Shown here one piece after another: positions 6,855-42,182 of a stretch of 64,000 nt of DNA. Source of the DNA: Limnospira fusiformis SAG 85.79 (GTDB lineage: Bacteria; Cyanobacteriota; Cyanobacteriia; Cyanobacteriales; Microcoleaceae); assembly GCF_012516315.1 (NCBI RefSeq), contig NZ_CP051185.1, forward strand, positions 1,353,403 through 1,417,402, written 5' to 3'. The position numbers were made by a program, and so were the translations under genes. Under the pieces are notes generated by a model that worked only from the letters and a program-made list of their open reading frames with translations, was not told where the DNA came from and did not search any database. Positions within the stretch are counted from its first letter, which is position 1. Each line of letters starts with the position of its first letter.

Positions 6855-7760
6855 CTAAAGCGACCCACCCAGGTTGTCCAACCAATTAAGAATCAGAGGA
6901 TTAACCACAGTTGGCCGTTCATCGTGGGGACAGTGGCCAGTTTCGGGAATAGAAACAAACTCAACCGATGCACCAGTTGTCGCTAAATCCCGATAAATAT
7001 CAGCACCCTTAATCGGAGTCCAGGGGTCATTTTCCCCCCAGATTACTAATAAAGGACGCTGTAATTTCGGCAAAAGTTCCGAAGGGCGAGGGCCAGCCGG
7101 GGCGGTTAAAATGGAAGCAAAAACCTGTTGTGCGCCCACATCATTAGAGGGTTGATAGAGTAAATCCACCAACTCATCTGTGATTGCGTCTCGGTTTCCG
7201 TAGACTTGGCGGAGGGTGTTGCGGATGCGGTGTTTTTGGCGGACTTGGTTAAACACAAACGGCCCAATAGCCGGGGAAGCGACTAGCTTAGTAAATGTTC
7301 CCATGACCACCCGTAGGGGAAAATTCAACTCTTCCGGGCGATGATTCAAGCCTCCCGCGCAGTTTAACAGGACTGCCCCCCGGCAAATATCCGGGTAATT
7401 TACCGCCATCATTAAACTCAGCAGCGCCCCAATGGAGTTACCGACAAAAACAGCAGGTTCTCCCACTTGTTCACTCCAGAAATCCCGCAGCAATTCTTCC
7501 CATAGGTCCAAACTATAATCAACGGCTGGTTTCCCAGAAGCCCCAAAACCCAATAAATCTAAGGCAAAGACCCGATATCCTCCAGCGGCTAAAACGGGGA
7601 TATTTTGTCGCCAATGACCAATAGAAGCCCCAAACCCATGGACTAAAATCAGGGGTTGGCCTGTTCCCTGGACTGTATAGCGGATTTGGTGACTTTTCCA
7701 GGTCCAATCGAGAGGTTCCAAACAACTACGGACAGTAACAGACGGTTGGGTTGCGGTCAT
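6855..7760 (-). CDS. Alpha/beta-fold hydrolase
   Basis: About 301 residues from the preferred start (MTATQPSV, ATG at 7758-7760). An upstream ATG (7802) would add 14 residues that look unconserved. The catalytic triad is visible: nucleophile elbow GNSIG, acidic residue in WGENDPWTP and histidine in ETGHCPHDE. HGFGASIGHWR forms the oxyanion-hole loop. The substrate is unknown; plant and cyanobacterial relatives are often annotated as pheophytinase-like or haloalkane-dehalogenase-like. A clear paralogue at 38067-39041 shares GFGASIGHWR and HCPHDE. The gene is flanked by repeat DNA on its upstream side. Confidence 0.85.
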   Translation of the reverse strand: MTATQPSVTVRSCLEPLDWTWKSHQIRYTVQGTGQPLILVHGFGASIGHWRQNIPVLAAGGYRVFALDLLGFGASGKPAVDYSLDLWEELLRDFWSEQVGEPAVFVGNSIGALLSLMMAVNYPDICRGAVLLNCAGGLNHRPEELNFPLRVVMGTFTKLVASPAIGPFVFNQVRQKHRIRNTLRQVYGNRDAITDELVDLLYQPSNDVGAQQVFASILTAPAGPRPSELLPKLQRPLLVIWGENDPWTPIKGADIYRDLATTGASVEFVSIPETGHCPHDERPTVVNPLILNWLDNLGGSL

Positions 7761-7802
7761 ATTGTGAACTTTTGTAAACTCTGTACTTCCATCATACAAC
7801 AT

Positions 7803-9171
7803 AAATAATTAATAATTAATAATTAATAATTAATAATTGTAGGGGCGGGTTCTGCTGTTAATTCTCTCACCCCACCAGGATATTAATAAACCCGCCCTCC
7901 GGGTTCTGCTGTTAATTCTCTCACCCCACGGTTTGCTTAGAAACCCGGTTTCTCAAAGAAACCGGGTTTCTTGACCAATAATTAATAATTAATAATTAAT
8001 AATTAATAATGGTAGGGGCGGGTTCTGTTGTCAATTCTCGGACCCCACCAGGATATTAATAAACCCGCCCTCCGGGTTCTGCTGTTAATTCTCTCACCCC
8101 ACGGTTTGCTTAGAAACCCGGTTTCTTGACCAATAATTAATAATTAATAATTAATAATTAATAATGGTAGGGGCGGGTTCTGTTGTCAATTCTCGGACCC
8201 CACCAGGATATTAATAAACCCGCCCTCCGGGTTCTGCTGTTAATTCTCTCACCCCACGGTTTGCTTAGAAACCCGGTTTCTTGACCAATAATTAATAATT
8301 AATAATTAATAATTAATAATGGTAGGGGCGGGTTCTGCTGTTAATTCTCTCACCCCACCAGGATATTAATAAACCCGCCCTCCGGGTTCTGCTGTTAATT
8401 CTCTCACCCCACCAGGATATTAATAAACCCGCCCTCCGGGTTCTGTTGTCAATTCTCGGACCCCACCAGGATATTAATAAACCCGCCCTCCGGGTTCTGC
8501 TGTTAATTCTCTCACCCCACGGTTTGCTTAGAAACCCGGTTTCTTGACCAATAATTAATAATTAATAATTAATAATTAATAATGGTAGGGGCGGGTTCTG
8601 CTGTTAATTCTCTCACCCCACCAGGATATTAATAAACCCGCCCTCCGGGTTCTGCTGTTAATTCTCTCACCCCACCAGGATATTAATAAACCCGCCCTCC
8701 GGGTTCTGTTGTCAATTCTCGGACCCCACCAGGATATTAATAAACCCGCCCTCCGGGTTCTGCTGTTAATTCTCTCACCCCACGGTTTGCTTAGAAACCC
8801 GGTTTCTCAAAGAAACCGGGTTTCTTGACCAATAATTAATAATTAATAATTAATAATTAATAATGGTAGGGGCGGGTTCTGCTGTTAATTCTCTCACCCC
8901 ACCAGGATATTAATAAACCCGCCCTCCGGGTTCTGCTGTTAATTCTCTCACCCCACCAGGATATTAATAAACCCGCCCTCCGGGTTCTGCTGTTAATTCT
9001 CTCACCCCACCAGGATATTAATAAACCCGCCCTCCGGGTTCTGCTGTTAATTCTCTCACCCCACCAGGATATTAATAAACCCGCCCTCCGGGTTCTGCTG
9101 TTAATTCTCTCACCCCACGGTTTGCTTAGAAACCCGGTTTCTCAAAGAAACCGGGTTTCTTGACCACGATA
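7803..9171. repeat. Compound tandem-repeat array (heptamers, 54-bp units, REP-like palindromes)
   Basis: Blocks of (AATTAAT)n are followed by GGTAGGGGCGGGTTCTG and a variable number of 54-bp units (containing CCAGGATATTAATAAACCCG; 8902 to 8956 is exactly 54 bp). Each block is closed by a palindromic segment with AGAAACCCGGTTTCT and, in some copies, its inverse AGAAACCGGGTTTCT. At least seven heptamer-led blocks are visible, with one to five 54-bp units each, so copy number is unstable. No gene is visible. Confidence 0.9.
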
Positions 9172-9235
9172 GGGGCGGTGCGTCAAAGGAATGAAATTTG
9201 CGGTTAACCCGATAGGTTATCCCTCTGACGCACCC
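9172..9235. repeat. Dispersed palindromic element related to the 24-copy array
   Basis: GTGCGTCA near 9178 and TGACGCAC near 9223 are inverted ends. The interior (ACCCGATAGGTTATCCCTC) is the reverse complement of the core of the repeat unit at 24.1-27.8 kb. It is a single dispersed member of that family in opposite orientation. Confidence 0.65.
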
Positions 9236-9290
9236 TACTTCTATAATTTATAAAGGCGATCGCTTTTCTATCCGGTGTAACAACCGCGCG

Positions 9291-9445
9291 AAAAACTGCA
9301 AAGGCTCTTTTCCCTTTCGGTACTCAGAAGCCTTGCAGTTATGGGGGAACAAAGCCCATTAGCATTAGGGCTGGGTTCTAGTTATATCTTCTATGCGCTG
9401 GGGTCTTAACTCACAAAGGAGCCATAGGACAGTCCCAGAGCCTAC
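9291..9445 (-). ncRNA. Unassigned small RNA gene with consensus promoter and intrinsic terminator
   Basis: On the minus strand a consensus promoter (TTGACA, 17-bp spacer, TATACT) lies at 9481-9453, so transcription should begin near 9445. About 155 nt later a strong hairpin (arms 9340-9329 and 9306-9294, AACTGCAAGGCT with AGCCTTTGCAGTT) is followed by TTTTT, a classic Rho-independent terminator. There is no long open frame. The RNA contains a pyrimidine stretch, GGCTCCTTTG, that could pair with Shine-Dalgarno sequences, and further small hairpins such as AGCCC/GGGCT. I could not assign it to a known family with certainty; 6S RNA and PsrR1 were considered without a convincing match. Confidence 0.6.
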
Positions 9446-9452
9446 AATATAC

Positions 9453-9481
9453 AGTATATCTCAGATGATGAGAATTGTCAA
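9453..9481 (-). promoter_or_regulatory. Sigma-70-type promoter of the small RNA
   Basis: -35 TTGACA (9481-9476) and -10 TATACT (9458-9453) with exactly 17 bp between, on the minus strand. It diverges from the SNF2 helicase gene that starts 55 bp away. Confidence 0.65.
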
Positions 9482-9535
9482 TGAATCTCAATGGCTCGGA
9501 ACCAAATAGATTTTTTCACAGAGTAAAAAAGGGAT

Positions 9536-12500
9536 ATGATTAGACTAGAAGATATAACTCGTGGTACAATTATTAAAGGGATTTTGCCTAATGAAAATGT
9601 TACCGTTATTGATGCTGCTTGGTATGGTGATGATGCGATTGAATTGACCTATAAAGATAGTCGGGGGAAACCTGGTAATGAACTACTATTTCGCAGTGAC
9701 CAAGATAGATTAGAAATTGTTAGGGATGGACAGCCCTGGAGTTTTAACGGAGATGGTGCTATATTTAGATTGGTTTCCGAAGCTCACCGCATTCGCCTGG
9801 CTCATTTGTTTGACCCTCGGCTGGCTGTTCATACTTCTTTGGTGGAACCTCTCCCACACCAAATTGATGCCGTTTATAACCAAATGCTGAACCGTCAACC
9901 TTTGCGGTTTCTGTTGGCTGATGACCCCGGGGCGGGTAAAACTATTATGGCGGGATTATTGATTCGGGAATTGTTGATTAGAGGGGATTTACAAAAGTGT
10001 TTGATTGTCTGTCCGGGGAGTTTGGCGATACAGTGGCAAGATGAATTGTCTCAGAAGTTTCACCTACCTTTTGAAATTTTGACAAACGATCGCCTTGAAG
10101 CTGCCCGCAGTGGGAACGCTTTTACGGAAATTCCCCTACTGGTTGCTCAATTAGATAAACTTAGCCGTAATCCTAAGTTACAGGCTAAACTCGCCCAAAC
10201 TGATTGGGATTTGGTCGTAGTTGATGAGGCTCATAAACTCTCGGCTTCCTTTTTTGGGGGGGAAATTAAGGAAACTAAACGCTATAAATTGGGGAAACTT
10301 CTGTCGGGGTTGACTCGCCATTTTTTGCTGATGACCGCTACGCCGCATAATGGGAAAGAAGAGGATTTTCAGCTATTTTTGGCTCTGTTGGATGCCGATC
10401 GCTTTGAGGGGAAATTTCGGGATGGTGTCCATGTCTGCGAGACCGCTGATTTGATGCGTCGCCTCATTAAAGAAAACTTGCTAAAATTTGATGGTCGTCC
10501 CCTGTTTCCAGAACGTCGCGCCCATACCGTGGAATATCGTCTCTCGGAGTTGGAAGCCATCCTTTATAAACAAGTAACCGACTATGTGAAAGAAGAATTT
10601 AATCGCGCCGATAACCTGCAAAAAGGACGTAGGGGAACCGTGGGTTTTGCCTTAACTATTCTCCAGCGTCGTCTGGCTTCCTCTCCCGAAGCTATTTATC
10701 AGTCTCTGAAACGACGGCGCGATCGCCTCCAAAAAAGACTGCGGGAAGAACAACTAAACCAACGAGGACTCAACGCGGAATTTGACCTTGATCAACAAGA
10801 CATTGATGATGATTTGGAAGACTTACCCAGTAGCGAGAGGGAAAACATCGAAACCGAAGTCGTTGACCTGGCGACCGCTTCTCGGACTATTCAGGAATTA
10901 CAGACAGAAATCGAACGTTTGCGCCAATTGGAAGAGTTAGCCCAACGGGTGCGCCAGAGTGGGAAAGATTGCAAATGGGAACAATTATCTAAGGTTATGG
11001 AAAACGAAATTTTTGCCTTTCCTAACCCCCAGAATGGCGACCATGAACCCGGACAGAAAGCATTGCGGAAACTGGTAATTTTTACGGAACATCGCGATAC
11101 CCTTAACTATTTGCGCGATCGCATTAAAACCCTTTTAGGTCGTCCTGAAGCCGTAGTTACCATTCATGGAAGTATGGGACGGGATGAACGCAAAAAAGCC
11201 GAAGAAGACTTTAAACAGGATGTTACCGTCCAGGTATTAGTAGCCACCGACGCAGCGGGGGAAGGAATTAACCTACAACGCGCCCATCTTATGGTTAATT
11301 ATGACCTACCTTGGAATCCGAATCGTTTGGAGCAGAGATTTGGGCGCATTCACCGGATCGGACAGACGGAAGTTTGTCATTTGTGGAATTTGGTCGCCGG
11401 GGAAACGCGGGAGGGGGATGTATATTTATCGCTGTTGCGGAAACTGGAAATTGAGCAAAACGCCCTGGGGGGTCAGGTGTTTGATGTGTTGGGAAAAGCG
11501 ATCGCTCAGGTAGAATTGCGGGAGTTGCTCATTGAAGCTATCCGCTATGGCGATCGCCCTGATATTAAAGCCAAACAGCAGCAATTGAGCGATCGCCTGA
11601 ACCGGGAATATTTGCAAACACTCATCGAAGAAAAAGCCCTCGCGAGAGACTCCTTGGATACCATCAAAGTTCAAGCCATTCGGAAGGACATGGAAAGGGC
11701 GCAAGCGCGGAAACTCCAACCCCATTTTATCGGCTTATTTTTCCAGGAGGCTTTTACCCGCCTAGGGGGAACCATGCGACTCCGGGAACCCCAACGTTAT
11801 CAAATAAACAACGTTCCCGCCGTTATTCGTCATCGCGATCGCCAAATAGGACTGAGTAAACCTATACTAAGTTATGAGCGGATCTGTTTTGAGAAGGATT
11901 TAGTCAGCGTCCCCGGGAAACCCATAGCCGACCTAGTTTGTCCTGGTCATCCCCTTCTTGATGCCACCCTAGACCTGATTTTAGAACGTCATCGAAATCT
12001 ATTGCGTCAGGGGAGCATTTTGGTTGATGATAGTCCTAACCCGCAGCCAGAGAGAATCTTAGTTTATCTGGAACATAGCATTCAGGACGCGCGAACCGAC
12101 TCCAACGGACAGCGGCGGTTAGTCTCCCGCAGAATGCAATATGTGGAACTTCCCTGTAGTCTGTTTCCCGACGGCGACCCGACTCCCTCCCCCGCTATTA
12201 ATGGGGGATATGCGCCTTATTTGGACTATCGCCCCCTCACCGAAGAGGAACATAAAGCGATCGCTCCTTTTCTGCCTAATTTACCGCCAAAAGAGGACAT
12301 TGAGAAACAGGCGACTACCTACGCCATTACCCATTTAGTCCAACCCCACCTGGAAGAGGTCCAGAAACCCAAACAGGAACTCATTGATAAAACCCTAGTC
12401 GCCGTCAAAGACCGACTCACCAAGGAAATTAACTATTGGGACCAAAGGGCTGTCAGTTTGCGCCTGGATGAAAAAGCGGGGAAACCCAATGCTAAACTTA

Positions 12501-13051
12501 ACTCTAGCAAAGCCCAGCAACGGGCGGACGAGTTAGCCTCCCGCCTAGAAAAAAGGCTCCGCGAACTGGAAGACGAGCGCCGACTTTCACCTTTACCCCC
12601 CGTGGTGGTAGGGGCAGCTTTAATCATTCCCAGCCACCGTCTGGCAGCCCTACAACCCCCCTCGCCGAAGATTTCCGACACTTTTGCCCAAAACCGGCAA
12701 GCCGTGGAATTAGCGGCAATGGAGGCGGTGATGCGGAAGGAAACGGAGTTAGGCTATCAACCGCGAGACGTTAGCGCCGAAAAGTGCGGTTATGATATCG
12801 AGTCGGTCATTCCCGAAACGGGAAAATTGCGGTTTATCGAGGTGAAAGGACGCATTGAGGGGGCGCAAACGGTGACGGTGACTAAAAACGAGATTTTGAC
12901 GGCCTTAAACCGACCTGATAGCTATATCCTAGCATTAGTGGAAGTTCCAGGCGATCGCATTTCCTATATCCACCAACCGTTTCAGCAACAACCCGATTTT
13001 GCCGCTCACAGTATCAATTATAGTTGGCGAGACCTAATAATTAATAATTAA
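9536..13051 (+). CDS. DrmD-like SNF2-family helicase with C-terminal DUF3883 (putative nuclease-like) domain
   Basis: A 1171-residue SF2 helicase. Walker A is DDPGAGKT (129-136), motif II DEAH (230-233), motif III MTATPHN, motif V GEGINLQ and motif VI RFGRIHRIGQ, as in SNF2/RapA-type translocases. The C-terminus (about 1065-1135) matches DUF3883: GYDI with D1087, then RFIEVKGR with E1102-V-K1104. That is a D...ExK arrangement seen in PD-(D/E)xK nucleases; activity is inferred. Similar proteins are DrmD of class 1 DISARM and helicases clustered with DUF1156 and DUF499 genes. The last codons (IINN-stop) lie inside AATTAAT heptamers, and a 2.2 kb repeat array separates it from its likely partner methyltransferase. 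Confidence 0.85.
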   Translation: MIRLEDITRGTIIKGILPNENVTVIDAAWYGDDAIELTYKDSRGKPGNELLFRSDQDRLEIVRDGQPWSFNGDGAIFRLVSEAHRIRLAHLFDPRLAVHTSLVEPLPHQIDAVYNQMLNRQPLRFLLADDPGAGKTIMAGLLIRELLIRGDLQKCLIVCPGSLAIQWQDELSQKFHLPFEILTNDRLEAARSGNAFTEIPLLVAQLDKLSRNPKLQAKLAQTDWDLVVVDEAHKLSASFFGGEIKETKRYKLGKLLSGLTRHFLLMTATPHNGKEEDFQLFLALLDADRFEGKFRDGVHVCETADLMRRLIKENLLKFDGRPLFPERRAHTVEYRLSELEAILYKQVTDYVKEEFNRADNLQKGRRGTVGFALTILQRRLASSPEAIYQSLKRRRDRLQKRLREEQLNQRGLNAEFDLDQQDIDDDLEDLPSSERENIETEVVDLATASRTIQELQTEIERLRQLEELAQRVRQSGKDCKWEQLSKVMENEIFAFPNPQNGDHEPGQKALRKLVIFTEHRDTLNYLRDRIKTLLGRPEAVVTIHGSMGRDERKKAEEDFKQDVTVQVLVATDAAGEGINLQRAHLMVNYDLPWNPNRLEQRFGRIHRIGQTEVCHLWNLVAGETREGDVYLSLLRKLEIEQNALGGQVFDVLGKAIAQVELRELLIEAIRYGDRPDIKAKQQQLSDRLNREYLQTLIEEKALARDSLDTIKVQAIRKDMERAQARKLQPHFIGLFFQEAFTRLGGTMRLREPQRYQINNVPAVIRHRDRQIGLSKPILSYERICFEKDLVSVPGKPIADLVCPGHPLLDATLDLILERHRNLLRQGSILVDDSPNPQPERILVYLEHSIQDARTDSNGQRRLVSRRMQYVELPCSLFPDGDPTPSPAINGGYAPYLDYRPLTEEEHKAIAPFLPNLPPKEDIEKQATTYAITHLVQPHLEEVQKPKQELIDKTLVAVKDRLTKEINYWDQRAVSLRLDEKAGKPNAKLNSSKAQQRADELASRLEKRLRELEDERRLSPLPPVVVGAALIIPSHRLAALQPPSPKISDTFAQNRQAVELAAMEAVMRKETELGYQPRDVSAEKCGYDIESVIPETGKLRFIEVKGRIEGAQTVTVTKNEILTALNRPDSYILALVEVPGDRISYIHQPFQQQPDFAAHSINYSWRDLIINN

Positions 13052-15212
13052 TAATTAATAATTAATAATTAATAATTGGGGAAAACTGTTGTGGTGGCTG
13101 AGAAACCCGGTTTCTTTGAGAAACCGGGTTTCTTGACTTGTGGGGGGAAACTCCGTTGACTGGAGGCTGAGAAACCCGGCTTATTTCTGGAGGGTTAGAA
13201 ACCCGGTTTCTTTGAGAAACCGGGTTTCTTGACTTGTGGGGGGAAACTCCGTTGACTGGAGGCTGAGAAACCCGGCTTATTTCTGGTGGCTGAGAAACCC
13301 GGTTTCTTTGAGAAACCGGGTTTCTTGACTTGTGGGGGGAAACTCCGTTGACTGGAGGCTGAGAAACTCGGCTTATTTCTGGAGGGTTAGAAACCCGGTT
13401 TCTTTGAGAAACCGGGTTTCTTGACTTGTGGGGGGAAACTCCGTTGACTGGAGGCTGAGAAACCCGGCTTATTTCTGGTGGCTGAGAAACCCGGTTTCTT
13501 TGAGAAACCGGGTTTCTTGACTTGTGGGGGGAAACTCCGTTGACTGGAGGCTGAGAAACCCGGCTTATTTCTGGTGGCTGAGAAACCCGGTTTCTTTGAG
13601 AAACCGGGTTTCTTGACTTCTGGGGGGAAACTCCGTTGACTGGAGGCTGAGAAACTCGGCTTATTTCTGGAGGGTTAGAAACCCGGTTTCTTTGAGAAAC
13701 CGGGTTTCTTGACTTCTGGGGGGAAACTCCGTTGACTGGAGGCTGAGAAACCCGGCTTATTTCTGGAGGGTTAGAAACCCGGTTTCTTTGAGAAACCGGG
13801 TTTCTTGACTTCTGGGGGAAACTCCGTTGACTGGAGGCTGAGAAACCCGGCTTATTTCTGGAGGGTGAGAAACCCGGTTTCTTTGAGAAACCGGGTTTCT
13901 TGACTTCTGGGGGAAACTCCGTTGACTGGAGGCTGAGAACTCCGGCTTATTTCTGGAGGGTTAGAAACCCGGTTTCTTTGAGAAACCGGGTTTCTTGACT
14001 TCTGGGGGGAAACTCCGTTGACTGGAGGCTGAGAAACCCGGCTTATTTCTGGAGGGTTAGAAACCCGGTTTCTTTGAGAAACCGGGTTTCTTGACTTCTG
14101 GGGGGAAACTCCGTTGACTGGAGGCTGAGAAACTCGGCTTATTTCTGGAGGGTTAGAAACCCGGTTTCTTTGAGAAACCGGGTTTCTTGACTTCTGGGGG
14201 GAAACTCCGTTGACTGGAGGCTGAGAAACTCGGCTTATTTCTGGAGGGTTAGAAACCCGGTTTCTTTGAGAAACCGGGTTTCTTGACTTCTGGGGGGAAA
14301 CTCCGTTGACTGGAGGCTGAGAAACCCGGCTTATTTGTGGTGGCTGAGAAACCCGGTTTCTTTGAGAAACCGGGTTTCTTGACTTCTGGGGGGAAACTCC
14401 GTTGACTGGAGGCTGAGAAACTCGGCTTATTTCTGGAGGGTTAGAAACCCGGTTTCTTTGAGAAACCGGGTTTCTTGACTTCTGGGGGGAAACTCCGTTG
14501 ACTGGAGGCTGAGAAACTCGGCTTATTTCTGGAGGGTTAGAAACCCGGTTTCTTTGAGAAACCGGGTTTCTTGACTTCTGGGGGGAAACTCCGTTGACTG
14601 GAGGCTGAGAAACCCGGCTTATTTCTGGTGGCTGAGAAACCCGGTTTCTTTGAGAAACCGGGTTTCTTGACTTGTGGGGGGAAACTCCGTTGACTGGAGG
14701 CTGAGAAACCCGGCTTATTTCTGGAGGGTTAGAAACCCGGTTTCTTTGAGAAACCGGGTTTCTTGACTTGTGGGGGGAAACTCCGTTGACTGGAGGCTGA
14801 GAAACCCGGCTTATTTCTGGTGGCTGAGAAACCCGGTTTCTTTGAGAAACCGGGTTTCTTGACTTGTGGGGGGAAACTCCGTTGACTGGAGGCTGAGAAA
14901 CCCGGCTTATTTGTGGTGGCTGAGAAACCCGGCTTATTTCTGGCGGGTTAGAAACCCGGTTTCTTTGAGAAACCCGGTTTCTTGACTTGTGGGGGGAAAC
15001 TCCGTTGACTGGAGGCTGAGAAACCCGGCTTATTTGTGGTGGCTGAGAAACCCGGCTTATTTGTGGTGGCTGAGAAACCCGGTTTCTTTGAGAAACCCGG
15101 TTTCTTGACTTGTGGGGGGGGAAAGCCGGGTAGGTTATCCATATAACGCCACGAGGGCGATAATAATTAATTATCCATTATTAATTATTAATTATTAATT
15201 ATTAATTATTAA
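13052..15212. repeat. Tandem array A: about 21 units of 96 bp with perfect REP-like palindrome
   Basis: The array starts and ends with AATTAAT heptamers. The unit contains TTGACTTSTGGGGGGAAACTCCG, CTGGAGGCTGAGAAAC and a 15-bp perfect inverted repeat, AGAAACCCGGTTTCT-TTG-AGAAACCGGGTTTCT. Successive copies of CGGGTTTCTTGACTT are 96 bp apart. Variation is mainly GTG/CTG and TTAG/TGAG swaps, and the last two units are rearranged. Minus-strand open frames here are by-products of the repeats. No gene is visible. Confidence 0.95.
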
Positions 15213-15215
15213 TTG

Positions 15216-18149
15216 ATGCCTGACCAGCTATACTGGGAGTCGGTGTCTACACTGCTTCCCATGACCTACCGCAAAAAACTCATCGAAGTTGCCCTACCCC
15301 TCGAAGCCATTAATATGGAGTCCGCGCGGGAAAAGTCTATTCGTCACGGACACCCCTCGACTCTGCATTTGTGGTGGGCGCGGCGACCTTTGGCGGCTTG
15401 TAGGGCGGTGCTTTGGGCTTCTTTGGTAGATGACCCCAGTAGTTGGCCGGAAAAATTCCCCACCCTGGAAGCACAAACCCAGGAAAGACAACGCCTTTTT
15501 GATATCTTAGGCCGAATTGTGGTCGATACCGATAAGAAGGGGAAACAAAAACAGGTGGTGCGGGGTTTGGTGTCTTGGGATGATATCAAAGACCCCCAGG
15601 TTATTCAAGACGCACAAAGGGAGATAGCCCGCTGTTTGGCGTGGGGAAGGGGGGAAAAACCACCGACGAAACCGGAAGAGGTCCGGGAGTATATCGCCCA
15701 GTATGCGCCACCCGCCTATGACCCTTTTGCGGGAGGTGGGTCTATTCCCCTGGAAGCGCAACGGTTGGGGTTGGAAGCCCATGCTAGTGATTTGAACCCG
15801 GTGGCGGTATTAATTAATAAGGCGTTGATTGAAATTCCCCCTCGGTTTGCGAATTTACCCCCGGTGAATGGAGATGATAGAAAACGGACTGGGTTAGAGT
15901 CTTGGCGTGGCGCACAGGGGTTGGCTGCCGATGTGCGATATTATGGAAGTTGGATGCGAGAGGTGGCTGTTAACGGCATTGGGGATTTATATCCTCCGGT
16001 GACTTTGGAAAATGGCGACAAGGCGACGGTTATTGCTTGGTTATGGGCGCGGACGGTGACTTGTCCTAACCCTGCTTGTGGCTGTCAAATGCCTTTGGTG
16101 CGAAGTTTTAACCTTTCCACAAAGACGGGAAAGGAGACTTGGGTTGAATATGCCATTAACGGGGAAACTAGCCCCCCCGAAATTGATTTTGTGGTGAAGA
16201 CGGGGAAGGGAAAACCACGGGAGGGGACGGTTGACCGCAAGGGGGCGGTTTGTCTGGCTTGCGGCACTTCTGTAAAATTGGATTATGTGCGGTCAGAAGG
16301 TCGTCAGAAACGCATGGGGGTTAAATTAATGGCTATTGTGGCTGAAGGTAAAAATGGCAGGATTTATTTACCCCCCACCAAACAACAGGAAAATATTGCT
16401 TTTTCCGCTAAACCAAAATGGCAGCCTGATGCAATTCTACCCAAAAATCCACGGGATTTTAAAACTCCTAATTATGGGATGACAAGTTTTGGCGATTTAT
16501 TCACCTCCCGTCAATTGGTGGCTTTAACTACTTTTAGTGATTTGGTCGGGGAAGCTAAAGATAAGGCTTTTCAAGATGCCCTGGCTGTGGGATTATCTGA
16601 TGATGATATTCCCTTGAATAAGGGGGGTAATGGCGCGAGGGCTTATAGTGAAGCGATCGCAGTTTATTTGGCGTTTGCTTTGGATAAATGTGCAGATTAC
16701 TGGAATACTATTGCCACTTGGATGCCAAGAGGAACAGTAGGTCATTTGTTTACAAAACAGGCTATCCAAATGACATGGGATTTTGTAGAAGCTAATGGGC
16801 TTGTTGATTTTCATTGTGCATGGCATGAATCTTTTGAATGGGTTTCAAAAAACCTCGAAACTTACTCTAATATCTCACTCGGAAAAGTTACCCAACATGA
16901 TGCAACCGCCCCTCACCCCAACGACACCACCCCAAAACTCATCTCAACCGACCCGCCCTATTATGATAATATTGGCTACGCGGATTTATCGGATTTTTTC
17001 TATGTGTGGCTGCGTCAATCTTTGGGTTTAATTTATCCTGATGTTTGCAGCACCCTGTTAGTGCCGAAATCTCAAGAATTGATAGCAACCCCCTACCGCC
17101 ATAAAGGCGAAAAAAACCAGGCTAAACAATTTTTTGAAGCCGGATTAATGCAGGCGTTTAAGCGCATCAATAGCATAGCTGATGCTAACTATCCGGTGAC
17201 CGTTTATTATGCTTTTAAACAAGCCGAAACTGATGCTAAAGATAAGGTTGCTTCTACGGGTTGGGAAACCATGTTAGAAGGGTTAATGCAGGCTAACTTT
17301 AGCATTGGTGGAACATGGCCAATGCGTAGCGAACGCAGTGGTCGCATGGTTGCCAATAATTCAAACGCCCTATCTTCTTCTATAGTGTTAGTGTGTCGTC
17401 CCCGTGGTGAGAATGCGGCACCAACGACGAAGCGAAAATTTTTAAGTGAATTGCAAAACGAACTCCCCCAGGCGCTAAAAACGCTGCAAGAGGGAAACAT
17501 CGCCCCGGTTGACCTAGCCCAAGCCAGTATCGGACCGGGTATGGCAATATATAGCAAGTATAGCGAAGTTTTAGAAAACGATGGCAGCAAGTTGACCGTC
17601 CGCAGCGCCCTACAATTAATTAATCAACTCCTAGATGAATACCTGACGGACCAAGAAGGGGAATTTGACAGCGATACCCGTTGGGCGTTAACATGGTTTC
17701 AACAATACCAATTCGACCCCGGACTATATGGGGAAGCCGAAACCCTGTCGAAGGCGAGAAATACCAGTATAGAAGGGTTAGAAACGGCGGGAATTTTAAC
17801 GGCGAAAGCGGGGAAAGTCCGGTTGCTGACACGGGATGAACTCCCGGAGAAATTGACGGCGGAAAAAGATACACGCCTCCCCCACTGGAAACTCACCCAA
17901 GGGCTAATTCAGCGACTCCTACAAAAGGGAGAAACGGGGGCGGCGGAGTTGCTGTCTGGGCTTCGACAACAGAAAGCGGAGGTAGAAATAGCCAGGGACC
18001 TCGCCTATCGTCTATATAATTTATGCGATCGCAAAGGATGGTCATCGGAAGCGATCGCCTATAATAGTCTAGTAGTATCCTGGCCGGAAATCACCCGTTT
18101 AGCCAGTGAGTTTGCCGCTAAACCTTCCCAAGGGGAACTTTTCAATTAA
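15216..18149 (+). CDS. DUF1156 DNA methyltransferase (adenine-specific type, Zn-ribbon) of a DISARM-related system
   Basis: About 977 residues from ATG 15216; a start at MTYRKKLIEVALP, 15 codons further on, is also possible. The N-terminus (EVALPLEAINMESAREKS, HPSTLHLWWARRPLAA) is the DUF1156 domain. SAM motif I is DPFAGGGSIP (170-179) and the catalytic motif is DPPY (580-583), fitting an amino-methyltransferase. Cysteines C284/C289/C291 and C347/C350 form a zinc-ribbon-like insertion. It resembles DrmMI of DISARM and COG1743 proteins. It probably methylates host DNA to mark self, working with the flanking helicase and HEPN-ATPase genes. Neighbouring arrays separate it by about 2 kb on each side, so separate transcripts are likely. 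Confidence 0.85.
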   Translation: MPDQLYWESVSTLLPMTYRKKLIEVALPLEAINMESAREKSIRHGHPSTLHLWWARRPLAACRAVLWASLVDDPSSWPEKFPTLEAQTQERQRLFDILGRIVVDTDKKGKQKQVVRGLVSWDDIKDPQVIQDAQREIARCLAWGRGEKPPTKPEEVREYIAQYAPPAYDPFAGGGSIPLEAQRLGLEAHASDLNPVAVLINKALIEIPPRFANLPPVNGDDRKRTGLESWRGAQGLAADVRYYGSWMREVAVNGIGDLYPPVTLENGDKATVIAWLWARTVTCPNPACGCQMPLVRSFNLSTKTGKETWVEYAINGETSPPEIDFVVKTGKGKPREGTVDRKGAVCLACGTSVKLDYVRSEGRQKRMGVKLMAIVAEGKNGRIYLPPTKQQENIAFSAKPKWQPDAILPKNPRDFKTPNYGMTSFGDLFTSRQLVALTTFSDLVGEAKDKAFQDALAVGLSDDDIPLNKGGNGARAYSEAIAVYLAFALDKCADYWNTIATWMPRGTVGHLFTKQAIQMTWDFVEANGLVDFHCAWHESFEWVSKNLETYSNISLGKVTQHDATAPHPNDTTPKLISTDPPYYDNIGYADLSDFFYVWLRQSLGLIYPDVCSTLLVPKSQELIATPYRHKGEKNQAKQFFEAGLMQAFKRINSIADANYPVTVYYAFKQAETDAKDKVASTGWETMLEGLMQANFSIGGTWPMRSERSGRMVANNSNALSSSIVLVCRPRGENAAPTTKRKFLSELQNELPQALKTLQEGNIAPVDLAQASIGPGMAIYSKYSEVLENDGSKLTVRSALQLINQLLDEYLTDQEGEFDSDTRWALTWFQQYQFDPGLYGEAETLSKARNTSIEGLETAGILTAKAGKVRLLTRDELPEKLTAEKDTRLPHWKLTQGLIQRLLQKGETGAAELLSGLRQQKAEVEIARDLAYRLYNLCDRKGWSSEAIAYNSLVVSWPEITRLASEFAAKPSQGELFN

Positions 18150-20660
18150 TAGGCTTAGAAACCCGGTTTCTTTATAATTAATAATTAATAATTAATAATT
18201 AATAATTGGGGAGTGGCGGGTTAGAAACCCGGTTTCTTTGAGAAACCGGGTTTCTTGACTTCTGGGGGGGAAACTCGGTTGACTTGTTGGCGGGAAACCG
18301 GGTTTCTTGACTTCTGGGGGGGAAACCCAGTTGACTGGAGGCTGAGAAACTCGGCTTATTTGTGGCGGGTTAGAAACCCGGTTTCTTTGAGAAACCGGGT
18401 TTCTTGACTTACGGGGGGAAACTCGGTTGACTTGTTGGTGGGAAACCGGGTTTCTTGACTTCTGGGGGGAAACTCGGTTGACTGGAGGCTGAGAAACTCG
18501 GCTTATTTGTGGCGGGTTAGAAACCCGGTTTCTTTGAGAAACCGGGTTTCTTGACTTCTGGGGGAAACTCGGTTGACTTGTTGGCGGGAAACCGGGTTTC
18601 TTGACTTCTGGGGGGAAACTCGGTTGACTGGAGGCTGAGAAACTCGGCTTATTTGTGGCGGGTTAGAAACCCGGTTTCTTTGAGAAACCGGGTTTCTTGA
18701 CTTACGGGGGGAAACTCGGTTGACTTGTTGGTGGGAAACCGGGTTTCTTGACTTCTGGGGGGAAACCCAGTTGACTGGAGGCTGAGAAACTCGGCTTATT
18801 TGTGGCGGGTTAGAAACCCGGTTTCTTTGAGAAACCGGGTTTCTTGACTTGAACTCGTTGACTTGTTGTGGGAAACCGGTTTCTTGACTTCTGAAACCCA
18901 GTTGACTGGAGGCTAGGAAGCTCGGCTTATTTGTGGCGGTTAGAAACCCGGTTTCTTTGACCAAACCGGGTTTCTTGACTTACTGGGGAAACTCAGTTGA
19001 CTGGTTGAGAAACTCGGCTTATTTGTGGCAGAAACCCGGTTTCTTTGAGTTTCTTGACTCTGGGAAACTCGGTTGACTGGAAAGGGTTTCTTGACTTCTG
19101 GGGGAAACGACTGGAGGCTGAGAAACTCGGCTTAATTGTGGCGGGTTAGAAACCGGTTTCTTTGAGAAAACCGGGTTTCTTGACTTCGGGGGAAACTCGG
19201 TTGACTTGTTGGTGGGAAACCGGGTTTCTTGACTTCTGGGGGGAAACCCAGTTGACTGGAGGCTGAGAAACTCGGCTTATTTGGCGGGTTAGAAACCGGT
19301 TTCTTTGAGAAACCGGGTTTCTTGACTTACGGGGGGGGGAAACTCGGTTGACTTGTTGGTGGGAAACCGGTTTCTTGACTTCTGGGGGGAAACCCAGTTG
19401 ACTGGAGGCTGAGAACTCGGCTTATTTGTGGCGGTTAGAAGCCCGGTTTCTTTGAGAAACCGTTTCTTTAACTCGGTTTATTTAGAAACCCGGTTTTTTG
19501 AGAAACCGGGTTTCTTACTTACGGGGAAACTCGGTTGACTGGGAAACCGGGTTTCTTACTCTGGGGGAAACCCGGTTGACTGGAGGCTGAGAAACTCGGC
19601 TTATTTGTGGGGTTAGAAACCTGGTTTCTTTTTTGAGAAACCGGGTTTTTGACTGGGGGAAACTCGGTTGACTTGTTGGTGGAAACCGGGTTTGACTTCT
19701 GGGGGAAACCCAGTTGACTGGAGTCTGAGAAACTCGGCTTATTTGGTTAGAAACCCGGTTTTCTTTTGAGAAACCGGGTTTCTGACTTACGGGGGAAACT
19801 CGGTTGACTTGTTGGTGGGAAACCGGGTTTCTTGACTTCTGGGGGGAAACCCAGTTGACTGGAGGCTGAGAAACTCGGCTTATTTGTGGAGGGTTAGAAA
19901 CGTTTCTTTGAGAAACCGGGTTTCTTGACTTACGGGGGGAAACTCGGTTGACTTGTTGGTGGGAAACCGGGTTTCTTTGACTTCTGGGGGAAACTCGGTT
20001 GACTGGAGGCTGAGAAACTCGGCTTATTTAGAGAGGGTTAGAAACCCGGTTTCTTTGAGAAACCGGGTTTCTTGACTTCGGGGAAAAACTCGGTTGACTT
20101 GTTGGTGGGAAACCGGGTTTCTTGACTTCTGGGGGAAACTCGGTTGACTGGAGGCTGAGAAACTCGGCTTATTTGGGTTAGAAACCCGGTTTCTTTGAGA
20201 AACCGGGTTTCTTGGACTTACGGGGGGAAACTCGGTTGACTTGTTGGTGGGAAACCGGGTTTCTTGACTTGGGGGGAAACCCAGTTGACTGGAGGCTGAG
20301 AAACTCGCTTATTTGTGGGGGTTAGAAACCCGGTTTTCTTTTTGAGAAACCGGGTTTCTTGACTTACGGGGGAAACTCGGTTGACTTGTTGGTGGGAAAC
20401 CGGGTTTCTTGACTTCTGGGGGAAACCCAGTTGACTGGAGGCTGAGAAACTCGGTATTTGTTAAGAAACCCGGTTAGAAACTTTTGAGAAACCGGGTTTC
20501 TTGACTTACGGGGGGAAACTCGGTTGACTTGTTGGTGGGAAACCGGGTTTCTTGACTTCTGGGGGGAAACCCAGTTGACTGGAGGCTGAGAAACTCGGCT
20601 TATTTGTGGCGGGTTAGAAACCCGGTTTCTTTGAGAAACCGGGTTTCTTGACTTCAACAG
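18150..20660. repeat. Tandem array B: about 16 units of roughly 147 bp, internally degraded
   Basis: A short heptamer block (18175-18207) is followed by units combining the AGAAACCCGGTTTCT palindrome with GACTTGTTGGTGGGAAACCG and a second half containing CCCAGTTGACTGGAGGCTGAG. The outer units are nearly identical. The middle (about 18850-19800) shows many small deletions. The building blocks are shared with array A but combined in a longer period. Minus-strand frames at 18503-18964 and 20364-20657 are repeat by-products. Confidence 0.9.
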
Positions 20661-20718
20661 GTGAACACAATTGGCGGTTTTGGCATATAATTGATCTCAA
20701 TTACGCATCCTACCGATT

Positions 20719-23700
20719 ATGGCTATCAGCAATCATGAGAGAGTTACTCGCGCTTTAAGGATACTCCAAGAAGGATTGTATCCCTTCGTGGAAAGGGAAA
20801 TGCGATCGCATTATGGCGATAATCACTGGTTGACCGCCGCCAGTGCCTCGCTTTCCGATAGTTATGTTAACAATCGTAGCCGACAACCTGTTGAAAAGAT
20901 TCTTAAAGAAGATCTCTATGCTCTGCTGATGGTCGTGTGGGAACATTGGAATGACGTATTTCGCCAAATTCTGGGAAGGAGTGAACGCAGCATTGTCAGC
21001 GAATTGCGCGATAACCGCAACCAATGGGCGCACCAAACCACTTTCTCGACTGATGATGCTTACCGTATCCTTGATAATATCAGCCGTCTGTTAACCGCTA
21101 TTTCCGCCCCAGAAGCCAGCCAAGTCGAAAAAGAGAAAAATGAATTGATGCGATCGCGTTTTGAAGCCGAAGCCCGTCGCGAAAGAAGGAAAGTCACCGT
21201 CACCCCCACAGAAGGACAACCTCAAACCGGACTCAAACCCTGGCGAGAGATTGTTACACCTCATCCTGACGTGGCTGGCGGGACTTTCCAACAAGCAGAA
21301 TTCGCCGCGGACTTATGGGAAGTATACCTCGATCAGGGGTCTGATGAATATAGAGACCCGACCGAATTTTATCGCCGCACTTACCTCACCGAAGGCCTAA
21401 AACAGCTTCTCAGTAATGCACTGCTACGGTTAACTGGTCAAGGGGGAGACCCGGTAATTGAATTGCAAACTAACTTCGGCGGCGGCAAAACTCACGCCCT
21501 GTTATCCCTCTATCACCTTTGCCAAGCCTGCCATATTCATAACTTACCAGGGATGGAAGAGATTTTTCAACAGGTGGGTATATCTCAACCTCCCCAAAAT
21601 GTTAACGTCGCTGTGTTGGTGGGGAATAAACTGCCCCCCAGTGGCATTAAACCCTATGGAAAAGGCGATCGTAACCGTCCCCCCATAATTAAAACCCTCT
21701 GGGGGGAGTTGGCTTGGCAGTTGGGAGGAGAAGAAGGTTATCAAATGTTGCGGGAGGCTGACGAAACGGCAACTAATCCCGGTGATATACTTAAACAACT
21801 GTTTAACCGCTTCTCCCCCTGTCTAATTCTGATTGATGAATGGGTCGCCTATGCTAGACAACTCCACGAAAAACCTGATGTGGTGGGGGGGACTTTCGAC
21901 ACTCAATTCACTTTTGCCCAAACTTTGAGTGAGTCCGCCAAAAATGCTAAGGATACCCTGCTGGTGGTGAGTGTTCCCGCGTCGGATATTGAAAAAGGCG
22001 GCGAGAAGGGATACGAAGCGACCGACAGGCTGAAAAATGCGATCGGTCGCGTAGAGTCCCCTTGGCGACCTGCCAGCGCCGAAGAAGGTTTTGAAATCGT
22101 CCGGCGGCGCTTATTTCAGTCTACCACGGATACAACTCTCTTGGCTCAACGAGATGCGGTGATAGATACCTTTTACAATATGTATCGGGAACATAGCCAG
22201 GAGTTTCCCACGGATACCAAGGAGGCTAACTATAAACGCCGTATGCGAGAGGCTTATCCTATTCACCCAGAATTGTTCGATCGCCTTTATGAGGACTGGT
22301 CGAGTTTAGATAAGTTTCAGCGGACCCGTGGGGTTTTGCGTCTCATGGCTAAGGTGATTCATACCCTATGGGAACGTAATGATGCTAATCTGTTGATTAT
22401 GCCGGGAAATGTGCCGATGGATGACCATCAAGTGCAGTCGGAACTTACCCGCTACCTGGAAGATAATTGGACTCCCATTATTGATAAAGATGTCGATGGA
22501 CCATTATCTTTACCCCTAGATCTCGATCGCCAATACCCTAATTTCGGCCGTTATTCCGCTTGTCGTCGCGTTACCCGCACTATCTACATGGGGTCAGCAC
22601 CAACCCAGAAAGCTGCTAACCGTGGCTTAGAAGACCGTAGAATAAAGCTAGGTTGTGTGCAACCGGGAGAGGCGGCGGCGACTTTTGGGGACGCACTCCG
22701 ACGACTCAGCGATCGCGCTACCTATCTCTATGTTGATAATAAACGCTACTGGATTTCCACTCAACCTAATGTTAACCGCACAGCGGCGGAAAGGGCTGAT
22801 CAGTTTCTCGGTGAAGGCGATCGCTATTTGGTTGAAAAGGAAATTGTTAAACGTCTCAAAAAATTTGGCGATCGGGGTATCTTTACCACGGTTCATGTGG
22901 CCCCCAATTCTAGCGGGGATATCCCTGATGATAAACGTTCCGGTGTGCGTCTGGTTATACTCCCCCCACAATTCCCCCACGACCAAGGCTTAAATTTACA
23001 GAGTCCGGCTTGCAAATGGGTGGCTGATGTGTTAGACTACAGGGGGGAGACTCGTCGCTCTTACCAAAATACCCTGGTGTTTTTGGCTGCTGATAAAACC
23101 AAGTGGGAAACCCTGGGAAAAAATGCCGCCCAATATCTCGCCTGGGAGTCCATTTGTCGCGAAAAGGAAGAGTTGAACCTAGATGCTTTTCAGGCTAAAC
23201 AAGCCCACACCAAACTACAGCAGTTTGATGATGATGTCCAAAAGCAGATTTCCGAAACCTACCAATGGTTATTAGTCCCTGAACAACCAGACCCCAAAGA
23301 AGCGATCGCCTGGAAAACTATCCGCCTCCGTAATCTTGAGTCCTCCCCGACACTTAACGCCAGCAAAAAGGCGATCGACGAATCCCACCTCTCAGATACC
23401 TACGCCCCCCTAAATCTCTATTTAGAGGTTTTGGAACCCTTCGTCTGGCGCGACAAAAACCACATCAGCCTACAGGAGATCTGGGAATATCTAACTAAAT
23501 ATCCCTATCTGCCCCGCCTCAAGGATGAACAGGTTTTGCTGAAAGCGATCGCCGACGGCGTATCCTCGACCGCTTGGAGTCAGTGGTTTGCCTACGCGGA
23601 AGGCTTCGATCCAGAAACCGGCACCTATCAGGGACTGAAAGCCGGGGAATCCATCAATCCTACAATAGCTCAAAATAGTTTAATTGTCAAGCCCGATGTA

Positions 23701-24090
23701 GCCCAAAAACAGTTACAACTGAGCCAGCAGCCCAGCCCCAATTCCTTGGAGCAATATTCCGCCCCCTCACCGGGTCAGGAAAGGGAGGTAAATGCGATCG
23801 TAGGGGAGGACATAAACCCCGGAAATTATAGAGTTTCCCCGGCTCAAAATCAGCCCCTAAGACGCTTTTACGGGGTGGTAGAAATTGAGGCTTTACGACT
23901 CAACAGAGACGCGGGAGTAATTAGCGATGAAGTCATTCAACATTTAATCTCTCTCAAAAACACCAAGGTAAAAATTACCCTAGAAATTCAGGCAGACATT
24001 CCCGACGGTATCCCGGAAAATGTAGCCCGGACAATTATGGAAAATTGCCAAACCCTAAAATTCCAGCAAAAAGGCTTGGAAACCAATTAA
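20719..24090 (+). CDS. DUF499 AAA+ ATPase with N-terminal Swt1-type HEPN domain
   Basis: A 1123-residue protein. Residues 1-125 resemble the Swt1 HEPN domain, with the motif R100-NQWA-H105 (R-x4-H) used by HEPN ribonucleases. The ATPase core has Walker A FGGGKTH (253-259) and Walker B LILIDEW (369-375), the DUF499/COG1483 signature. DUF499 ATPases are known neighbours of DUF1156 methylases and SNF2 helicases in defence islands, as here. The HEPN domain may be the RNA-cleaving effector or a nucleic-acid sensor; this is inference. It ends in heptamer repeats. No DUF3780, PLD nuclease (DrmC), DrmA or DrmB gene follows, so the system is either minimal or reduced. Confidence 0.85.
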   Translation: MAISNHERVTRALRILQEGLYPFVEREMRSHYGDNHWLTAASASLSDSYVNNRSRQPVEKILKEDLYALLMVVWEHWNDVFRQILGRSERSIVSELRDNRNQWAHQTTFSTDDAYRILDNISRLLTAISAPEASQVEKEKNELMRSRFEAEARRERRKVTVTPTEGQPQTGLKPWREIVTPHPDVAGGTFQQAEFAADLWEVYLDQGSDEYRDPTEFYRRTYLTEGLKQLLSNALLRLTGQGGDPVIELQTNFGGGKTHALLSLYHLCQACHIHNLPGMEEIFQQVGISQPPQNVNVAVLVGNKLPPSGIKPYGKGDRNRPPIIKTLWGELAWQLGGEEGYQMLREADETATNPGDILKQLFNRFSPCLILIDEWVAYARQLHEKPDVVGGTFDTQFTFAQTLSESAKNAKDTLLVVSVPASDIEKGGEKGYEATDRLKNAIGRVESPWRPASAEEGFEIVRRRLFQSTTDTTLLAQRDAVIDTFYNMYREHSQEFPTDTKEANYKRRMREAYPIHPELFDRLYEDWSSLDKFQRTRGVLRLMAKVIHTLWERNDANLLIMPGNVPMDDHQVQSELTRYLEDNWTPIIDKDVDGPLSLPLDLDRQYPNFGRYSACRRVTRTIYMGSAPTQKAANRGLEDRRIKLGCVQPGEAAATFGDALRRLSDRATYLYVDNKRYWISTQPNVNRTAAERADQFLGEGDRYLVEKEIVKRLKKFGDRGIFTTVHVAPNSSGDIPDDKRSGVRLVILPPQFPHDQGLNLQSPACKWVADVLDYRGETRRSYQNTLVFLAADKTKWETLGKNAAQYLAWESICREKEELNLDAFQAKQAHTKLQQFDDDVQKQISETYQWLLVPEQPDPKEAIAWKTIRLRNLESSPTLNASKKAIDESHLSDTYAPLNLYLEVLEPFVWRDKNHISLQEIWEYLTKYPYLPRLKDEQVLLKAIADGVSSTAWSQWFAYAEGFDPETGTYQGLKAGESINPTIAQNSLIVKPDVAQKQLQLSQQPSPNSLEQYSAPSPGQEREVNAIVGEDINPGNYRVSPAQNQPLRRFYGVVEIEALRLNRDAGVISDEVIQHLISLKNTKVKITLEIQADIPDGIPENVARTIMENCQTLKFQQKGLETN

Positions 24091-40427: not shown

Positions 40428-42182
40428 GTAGGGGTCGAAAGGGAAGTCGCCTTCCCCAACTCCCATACAAAACCGTGCTTGATACTTTCACATCACACGG
40501 CTCCTGATGTGGATACCCTATTGTCAGTAGGAACAGGGTTACTACCCCCTGCTTTATGACTTCAACTTTGGGAGCTATATACACTACGTAGTCTTTAAAC
40601 TCGCTCTGGTCATAAGTACTCCTACTTATCGCAGTCTCTATATCCACACCGTGACTAGTGGGCATATCCCAACCATTACAGTTAGGCATTAGCTTTCAGT
40701 CACATCCCTTCCCCTTATGGGGTTAGGGGTCGAGAGTGAAGTCACCTTCACCCTCTCCCATTCAGAACCGTGCTTGATAGTTTCCCATCACACGGCTCCT
40801 GGTGTGGATACCCTATTTGTCAAAGGAGCAGAATCAAGAGACCTGCTTTCTACTTCGATGTTCAGAGCTATATGCACCACGTAGTCTTTAAACTCGTCCT
40901 CGCCATTATACTCTTACTGACCGCAGTATCTATATCCACACCGTGACCTGTGGGCATATCCCAACCATGACAATTGGGCTTTAGCTTCTGGTCACATCCT
41001 TCACCCTCTAAGCATGCGCTTACATTTTTCACTACTGCCTTGTGAATAGCATTACTCACTGGTTTATAGGCAGAGCATTAGAGGGGTTACAACGTTCCGA
41101 TTATATGGGCATTCCATCGTTAGATTTGTCCTCTCCGCCGGGGTACTTTTAAAGGTCTGTGTAGGTAGTCGCACGAACCCCCTACTTTTCCCCTTGCCCT
41201 TTTGAGCGCAGCGTGTCAACCTATTTCGCTGCTAGTGTATTACGATGGTTCAAGTCGGACATTCGGTCTTGCTAATCATAGATGGTTGGCAGTGGTCGCG
41301 TCTTGGTAGTAGGTTCTACCTCACGCCTTCCGTTCCCCGCTTCAATCCTGGAGTTATGATTTCCAAAACTGGGGGTGGCTATCGCCGTTACTCTCTACTC
41401 CCTGATTTCTCAGTTCGTTTATGACCTTGAGTTCCCTGCCTTGCTTAGTTCCCTAAGCGTCGGGACATATAACCAGTTATGAGGATGGTCAGGAGAGGTC
41501 TCCTTATATCCAGATTCGGAGCTGGAATCCTCACCGGGTAGTTATTTCGGGCATTTCAGCCCTATTTCATACCCGAACGTCTCGCACCATACGCTTACAC
41601 TTTTCACTACTCTACGAGATGTACTCGTAGAGAGCCCAATAGGGGTTTCAACGTTCCGTATATATGGGCATTCCATCTTTAGATTTGTCCTATCCACCGG
41701 GGTAATTTTAAAGGTCTTTGTAGGTAGTAAGTCTAAACTCCTACTTTTCCCCTTGCTCTTTTGAGCGCAGCGTGTCAACATATTTCGCTGCTTGGTAATT
41801 ACGATGGTTCAGGCCAGACATTCGGTTTCCCTAATCATGGATGGTTGGCAGTGGTCGCATATAGTAGTATGTTCTACATCACGCCTTCCGTTCCCCGCTT
41901 CAATCCTAGGGTTGTGAATCCTAAAACTGGGGGTGGCTATCGCCTTTACTCTTTCCCATAATCACCCCAAGTGGGTTAAATACTCCTCCTAAGTATACTT
42001 GGACGGTACTTTGTGATTTCTTAAAATGGGATTGACCCTGAGTTCCCTGCCTTGCTTAGAGTCACGACTTCTAAGCGTCGGGACATATATACAGTTAAGG
42101 GGTAGACTTGTCGAAGGTCTAACTCCCTCTAGGAGGTTATTTCAGGCATTGCAGCCTTATTTCACTCCTAAACATCTCGCAC
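40428..42182 (-). mobile_element. Outer ORF-less group II intron of a twintron
   Basis: Minus strand. The 5' end is GTGCGAGATGTTTAGG (G at 42182), matching the group II GUGYG start, directly after tnpB codons. The 3' end has domain V, GAGCCGTGTGATGTGAAAG with pairing AGCACGG, then a domain VI ending in TCGACCCCTAC at 40428 with a bulged-A candidate 8 nt from the end. There is no reverse transcriptase frame. Its domain IV region is occupied by a second intron. Without the inner intron it is about 889 bp. Splicing would need a maturase supplied in trans. Confidence 0.8.
40722..41587 (-). mobile_element. Inner ORF-less group II intron nested in the outer one
   Basis: Minus strand, about 866 bp. 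It starts GTGCGAGACGTTCGGG (41587) and ends after domain V (GAGCCGTGTGATGGGAAAC, AGCACGG) with TCGACCCCTAA or TAAC near 40722. It is highly similar to the outer intron along its whole length (shared CAAGGCAGGGAACTC, GGCGATAGCCACCCCCAG, GAAGCGGGGAACGGAAGGCG). Insertion is in the outer intron's domain IV region (GTAAGCGTATG before it, CCCCATAAGGGG after it). The 3' boundary may be off by about 3 bases. No maturase frame. Confidence 0.75.

Follow-up and report, generated by a model that had tools for sequence, protein, structure and literature searches.

AbiF, together with its noncoding RNA (ncRNA), has been proposed as an ancestor of Cas13, and the complex of the PbAbiF protein with its ncRNA was reportedly described by Zilberzwige-Tal et al. 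Two RNA partners of such proteins serve for comparison. According to the part of PMC12737573 that deals with inhibition, AbiFr shuts off its HEPN RNase by means of bulged nucleotides, and the relevant part of PMC12373285 describes RCd22 as neutralizing the AbiF protein of C. difficile in cis and in trans via direct binding. PD-T4-5 is presented in sections of PMC9519451 as a plasmid-borne gene conferring abortive, toxin-antitoxin-like defence and as a distant relative of AbiF/D; the terms "ncRNA" and "non-coding RNA" are absent from the main text of that paper. In the titles and abstracts of the open-access papers retrieved on AbiF/ncRNA, Cas13, cyanobacteria, RF03085, and PD-T4-5, neither the RNA reported here nor a divergent partner RNA is described.

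The locus compared with these systems lies in the window, that is, the whole 64,000-nucleotide stretch of Limnospira fusiformis SAG 85.79 (genome G000) that was analysed; its features are collected in Table 1. The original prediction had proposed a complete promoter-RNA-terminator unit on the minus strand, and this was confirmed. The promoter TTGACA-17-TATACT (9481..9453, minus strand) agrees with 11 of 12 consensus positions and ranks first of 25 promoter-like sites in the interval 7000-12000, for which shuffled sequences give 8.0, the number of such sites there being inflated by AT-rich repeats. The RNA predicted from it measures 156 nt (9446..9291), in agreement with the anticipated length of about 155 nt, and its minimum free energy (MFE) of -49.8 kcal/mol, compared with -40.2 ± 3.6 kcal/mol in shuffles, corresponds to a z score of -2.66, with 1/200 shuffles being equally stable. 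The expected T-tailed terminator is present as a 3′ hairpin followed by T5, yet it was not listed by a simple terminator scan, probably because of the internal loop of the hairpin. As foreseen, no open reading frame of at least 80 amino acids overlaps the gene, and each of the six frames contains at least one stop. Judged from sequence, this combination of a promoter and a structured RNA of about 156 nt with a T-tailed 3′ hairpin marks a real RNA gene, which would be transcribed from the minus strand.

Table 1. Positions of the RNA gene, its surroundings, and comparable RNAs elsewhere (window coordinates unless a locus is named)
Feature	Position	Strand	Basis or remark
-35 box TTGACA of the RNA promoter	9476..9481	-	Promoter scan
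-10 box TATACT of the RNA promoter	9453..9458	-	Promoter scan
Predicted RNA, ~156 nt	9446..9291	-	Start inferred from promoter
Conserved 5′ domain, family hallmark	9385..9445	-	Covariation
Middle hairpin, predicted	9347..9378	-	Fold
3′ hairpin then T5; probable terminator	9294..9340	-	Fold
GAGUACCGAAAGGGAAA at tip of 3′ hairpin	9309..9325	-	Common to G017 C196 (two copies) and G369
Possible vestige of a lost abi_2 start	9481..9543	+	By eye; tentative
hmaA (helicase), not of the RNA system	9536..13051	+	PADLOC HmaA, 1609 bits
HmaB	15213-18149		PADLOC
HmaC	20719-24090		PADLOC
Proteobacterial divergent RNAs beside PD-T4-5-like genes	L093 1030-1140; L094, L091, L096, L097		

The predicted fold comprises three parts. 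The 5′ domain consists of a long stem (CUGGG/CCCAG), a short stem (GUC/GAC), and an inner hairpin (UGGCUC/GAGUUA), and all 16 of its 16 pairs are intact in the window copy. The middle hairpin has no counterpart in the two aligned relatives. The tip of the 3′ hairpin, GAGUACCGNNAGGGAAA, occurs at 9309-9325 of the window, at L003 1625-1691 (as a tandem duplicate), and at L007 1361-1377; by eye, the stems beneath it differ between window and relatives while pairing is kept. This tip may resemble a bulged-G motif and a segment of 23S rRNA.

The RNA belongs to a family. When it was used as a BLAST query, 2/59 genomes matched, its own included; the other, G017, belongs to another genus and contains two copies of the 5′ half at 79-82% identity (E 5e-20 and 6e-16). 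Covering the first 61 nt and built from six sequences, a covariance model (R2) matched 10/388 genomes of the order at 11 loci, and among 386 genomes drawn from the phylum it matched four, all within the same ten. Because stricter filters apply to searches of over 40 genomes, at the expense of weak matches, these family counts are lower bounds. Two extra weak matches of a second covariance model built from 13 rows (R3), namely G301/L047 (E 0.007) and G327/L048 (E 0.001), were discarded, since both lie inside long open frames, that of L048 encoding a Glycos_transf_3 protein and that of L047 appearing alike by eye; an abi_2 profile found no match in either genome. Searching genome_contigs with the exact RNA pattern returned six stretches (Planktothrix UBA8402, an uncultured cyanobacterium, Anabaena FACHB-1237, Planktothricoides SR001, Aphanizomenon FACHB-1287, and an Oscillatoriales MAG), five of which correspond to loci already known, with Aphanizomenon being additional. 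The pattern was absent from viral contigs (0 matches), and the window RNA was absent from the plasmids searched.

The conserved part is supported by covariation. Across 11 distinct rows, 95.4% of the cells are paired and 6/16 pairs show changes on both sides, a count that leans towards the structure of R2 to which the rows were fitted. None of 500 shuffles reached either value, and slid controls paired at 43.9% at most; the number of further pair types does not exceed that in shuffles, 259/500 of which reached it. The structure that guided the underlying alignment (A4) started out as the MFE fold of the window RNA, and a MAFFT alignment of six rows, assessed with a structure from that same fold, gave 99.0% paired cells and four two-sided pairs (reached in 2/500 shuffles). 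Together with the relatives in another genus, the covariation of the 5′ domain bears out the view that the unit is more than a product of chance. No match to the window RNA was found in Rfam 15 at the gathering score, including the families suggested beforehand (6S, PsrR1, and Yfr, as far as Rfam has them), none of which matched, and Rfam abiF (RF03085) matched neither the window nor any of 15 loci (11 cyanobacterial and four proteobacterial). The highest-ranking sub-threshold match, RT-14 (21.4 bits versus 48.1 needed, E 0.87), was set aside, its likeness being confined to the 3′ hairpin. With a stable fold, relatives, and covariation, the gene can thus be regarded as genuine and unassigned, as originally proposed, and its first 61 nt define, on the strength of sequence and predicted pairing, an undescribed cyanobacterial RNA family.

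At four of the 11 loci (G017 C75, G369, G071, and G128 C155) the RNA adjoins an abi_2 gene, and in all four it lies divergently upstream of it. In G017, G369, and G071 the plus strand reads TGTCAATG, so that the final base of the TTGACA complement is also the first of the ATG of the putative toxin gene; in G128 the -35 box and the ATG abut. The window has the same arrangement: the plus strand at 9476..9481 reads TGTCAA, the last A of which begins an ATG (9481-9483) at the position occupied by the abi_2 start codon in relatives. The G017 C75 partner matches PF07751 (Abi_2) with 26.4 bits (cut-off 25.6) and the PADLOC profiles PD-T4-5 (2e-17) and AbiD (4e-8), and relatives of it occur in 17/388 genomes. 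The G071 partner falls below the Pfam cut-off for Abi_2, and the G128 C155 gene is broken by stops. Residues R64 and N65 and those of the RNxxxH motif are invariant across 11 Abi_2 proteins.

AlphaFold2 was used to model the Abi_2 protein, yielding a pLDDT of 86.4 and a pTM of 0.81. The closest structural match of the model is 8vz6_A, "PbAbiF dimer bound to ncRNA" (Z 12.2, rmsd 4.2 over 208 residues, 10% identity), followed by a next row at Z 5.6. This match came solely from the second structural look (VIA); Foldseek found nothing in the PDB at E 0.001, and a PDB sequence search with Abi_2 retrieved no AbiF. Because the Foldseek result was not significant and a Z of 12 can arise by chance between helical proteins, the case for the fold draws on the distance separating this match from the next row, combined with the Pfam and PADLOC matches. 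On this footing, the modelled partner is a member of the AbiF/Abi_2 proteins with a predicted HEPN fold and an RNxxxH motif, the latter suggesting RNase activity. As in type III toxin-antitoxin systems, the RNA thus adjoins a putative RNase toxin gene at 4/11 loci, the window's own not being among them.

The genome of the window RNA lacks a detectable toxin gene: no abi_2 was found in G000 by Pfam, protein, or profile searches, and the type III pattern of a toxin encoded in the same genome is accordingly absent there. Since the Pfam model alone misses the G071 partner, the statement on toxin absence rests on the profile A5, which was run against 13 genomes. Of the ten RNA genomes only G017, G369, G071, and G128 match it at E 0.001; G000, G070, G092, G119, G164, and G232 do not, the remaining scraps being E 0.39 in G164 and E 0.46 in G119. 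The RNA is therefore seen without the toxin more often than with it (7/11 loci lack an adjacent abi_2, and 6/10 genomes have no profile match), which leaves room for another primary function. In this sense, the RNA could be an independent cyanobacterial sRNA that acts by base pairing, has its real function in the orphan loci, and lies near abi_2 by chance. Two orphans, that of Aphanizomenon being a presumed one, speak for such a reading, which we nevertheless consider improbable. In Anabaena (L043) and Aphanizomenon (L045) the 5′ domains are 90.9% identical and promoter plus RNA 82.3% identical, whereas the flanks reach only 55.0% and 51.3%, and both copies stand beside a conserved frhB-type gene. 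Against a free-standing sRNA, what is conserved goes beyond an exposed, unvarying seed and consists of helices with compensatory changes, intact loci have the -35 box in contact with the start codon of abi_2, similar divergent RNAs occur at some distant abi_2 genes (see below), and the distribution is patchy (10/388). The frhB-type gene (Pfam FrhB_FdhB) adjoins the orphan RNA at L043 1851-1912 and L045 7046-7105, and in the terminator hairpin of these two copies the stem differs while pairing is kept.

Traces of toxin loss can be followed at one locus and perhaps at a second. At G017 C196, 15 abi_2 codons (MPDLNRLSLETQDAI) are followed by a stop, with the RNA beside them intact; by its sequence this remnant is a decayed toxin gene. 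In the window, the candidate vestige comprises 20 codons and then a stop, with likeness to the toxin's MSDLNP confined to the first few, and it may tentatively be taken as remains of abi_2. Since no toxin gene is detectable here while promoter, 5′ domain, and terminator remain, the window RNA is best regarded as an orphan antitoxin. Specifically, we favour the explanation that it is a partner, most likely the antitoxin, of Abi_2/AbiF-type HEPN ribonucleases whose toxin was lost in this genome; this is probable, though well short of certain. A version of the same explanation, compatible with it, holds that the RNA is a pure relic with no present role. That no abi_2 was found in G000 and that the same-genus genome G001 has no such RNA fit a relic, while the intact pairs of the 5′ domain and the 11/12 promoter are at odds with decay, as are the two orphans conserved above their flanks, from which it follows that orphan RNAs can be under selection; on balance a pure relic is a real but minority possibility.

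The neighbouring HmaABC defence system (9536-24090) had been suspected to be linked with the RNA, and the comparison with G001 does not sustain this. G001 contains HmaA, HmaB, and HmaC at 88, 78, and 82% identity, preceded, as in the window, by the abhydrolase stretch and repeats, but without the RNA-bearing piece, and unfiltered R3 searches around its hmaA gave nothing better than E 8.5. More generally, neither G001 nor G020, whose hmaA loci are the closest besides that of the window, has the RNA there. From the presence of HmaABC without the RNA in G001 it follows that the RNA is not a fixed part of Hma. The RNA was also considered as a partner of HmaC, whose N terminus contains a Swt1-like HEPN domain with RNQWAH, and this candidate was set aside, as the HmaC of G001 (82%, RNKWAH) occurs without the RNA. 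Between abhydrolase and RNA, the window contains dense tandem repeats with 54- and 155-nt spacing (7738-9220), where G001 has a different repeat expansion. Farther downstream, two Rfam group II intron matches lie on the minus strand at 40428-40800.

It had further been suggested that an exposed CUCCUUU stretch could bind ribosome binding sites (RBS), with the helicase leader as a candidate target. Exposure holds for four of the seven bases, while CUC is paired with a probability of 0.98-1.0, and the 7-mer occurs in only 1/13 aligned rows, that of the window itself. The RNA does adjoin hmaA in G000 and diverges from it, and the duplex between its loop and the RBS reaches -10.0 kcal/mol; this value is matched by 10% of shuffled RBS regions, however, and 71% of shuffled leaders give as good a duplex with the RNA. 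With the 7-mer half paired and poorly conserved, and with G001 having HmaABC in the same setting without the RNA, regulation of hmaA through CUCCUUU pairing with its ribosome-binding site is highly improbable.

Divergent RNAs were also seen at more distant abi genes. By eye, the distant abi_2 loci L009, L017, L019, L020, and L022 have a sigma-70-like promoter and an RNA on the opposite strand, and these RNAs carry a long-range stem of the type CCUUGGG...CCCCAAGG. L021 has an RNA upstream of abi_2 without a clear promoter, and in L010, L011, and L014 (which ends at a contig edge) no divergent RNA was seen, likewise by eye. Unfiltered R3 searches over 22 loci yielded eight matches up to E 5, five of which are found immediately 5′ of abi_2, on the other strand: L018 (E 8e-5) together with the weak matches in the near-identical L012/L013 (0.046), L016 (0.22), and L015 (0.31). 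A match in L055 (E 2.8), located away from the Abi gene, was dropped. The PD-T4-5 profile is matched by partners in cyanobacteria and on gamma- and alphaproteobacterial plasmids, and the PD-T4-5-type genes of E. coli and Pantoea plasmids and of an IMG/VR contig have a conserved divergent RNA and terminator of their own, which does not imply homology to the window RNA. These proteobacterial RNAs gave only sub-threshold matches in Rfam. The E. coli RNA has similar sequences in 62 plasmid records, itself included, and no annotated feature lies under the match in the best 40 of the 62. In four other plasmid records examined, a PD-T4-5-type gene lies about 45 nt away in two and is absent in two, where the similarity ends inside the promoter as judged by eye. 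The E. coli plasmid abi stretch was not found in ecoli_genomes.

For the favoured explanation, an orphaned antitoxin of AbiF-type ribonucleases, the following scheme can be drawn. In intact loci the RNA and toxin genes would stand back to back, with the -35 box touching the first codon of the toxin gene, and the closely packed divergent promoters may make transcription of the two compete. By analogy with AbiFr on PbAbiF and RCd22 on AbiF, the toxin would be inhibited by the folded 5′ domain, which would attach to the HEPN dimer and obstruct its RNase site. In G000 the toxin gene would have been lost, with promoter, 5′ domain, and terminator being kept. The orphan RNA would then be either a relic or a shield, the explanation spanning both; possibly it is kept against incoming AbiF RNases, any present role being putative. 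A broader proposal is that AbiF/PD-T4-5 genes of cyanobacteria and proteobacteria share overlooked divergent RNA antitoxins with a promoter touching the toxin start, and that toxin-less genomes keep the RNA so as to survive or disarm AbiF systems arriving on plasmids or phages. We put this forward as speculation that may well prove wrong; if true, such standing RNA inhibitors would be an RNA counterpart of anti-addiction modules. Natural orphan antitoxins would make it possible to ask whether RNA inhibitors are retained by cells as protection from foreign defence genes.

Compared with the known systems, the family resembles each in part. Rfam abiF RNA (RF03085) is likewise a structured RNA tied to Abi_2 genes; it differs in that its model found no match in G000 at E 10, the reach of this genome search being unproven because 14 control genomes gave only sub-cut-off matches. 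RCd22, as far as the relevant part of PMC12373285 describes it, is also an ncRNA beside an Abi_2 gene with its own promoter and terminator, but it has a pair of abiF motifs (RF03085) and precedes the toxin gene in the same orientation, being co-transcribed with it, whereas the window family has one domain, the opposite strand, and no RF03085 match. With PD-T4-5, abortive and toxin-antitoxin-like in the account given in sections of PMC9519451, the likeness is that the partner proteins match its profile; PD-T4-5-like defence genes, now described by protein alone, would gain a hidden RNA. A further class of divergent partner RNAs lacking an abiF motif match would also widen the possible sources of guide RNAs. 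AbiF/AbiFr (PDB 8VZ6) differs from the window RNA in that the latter is divergent, has no RF03085 match, and has lost its toxin in G000. The two share an apparently same-fold HEPN RNase (Z 12.2) with an adjacent structured ncRNA, and the single conserved RNA domain per molecule found here fits the one AbiFr per monomer reported in the pertinent part of PMC12737573.
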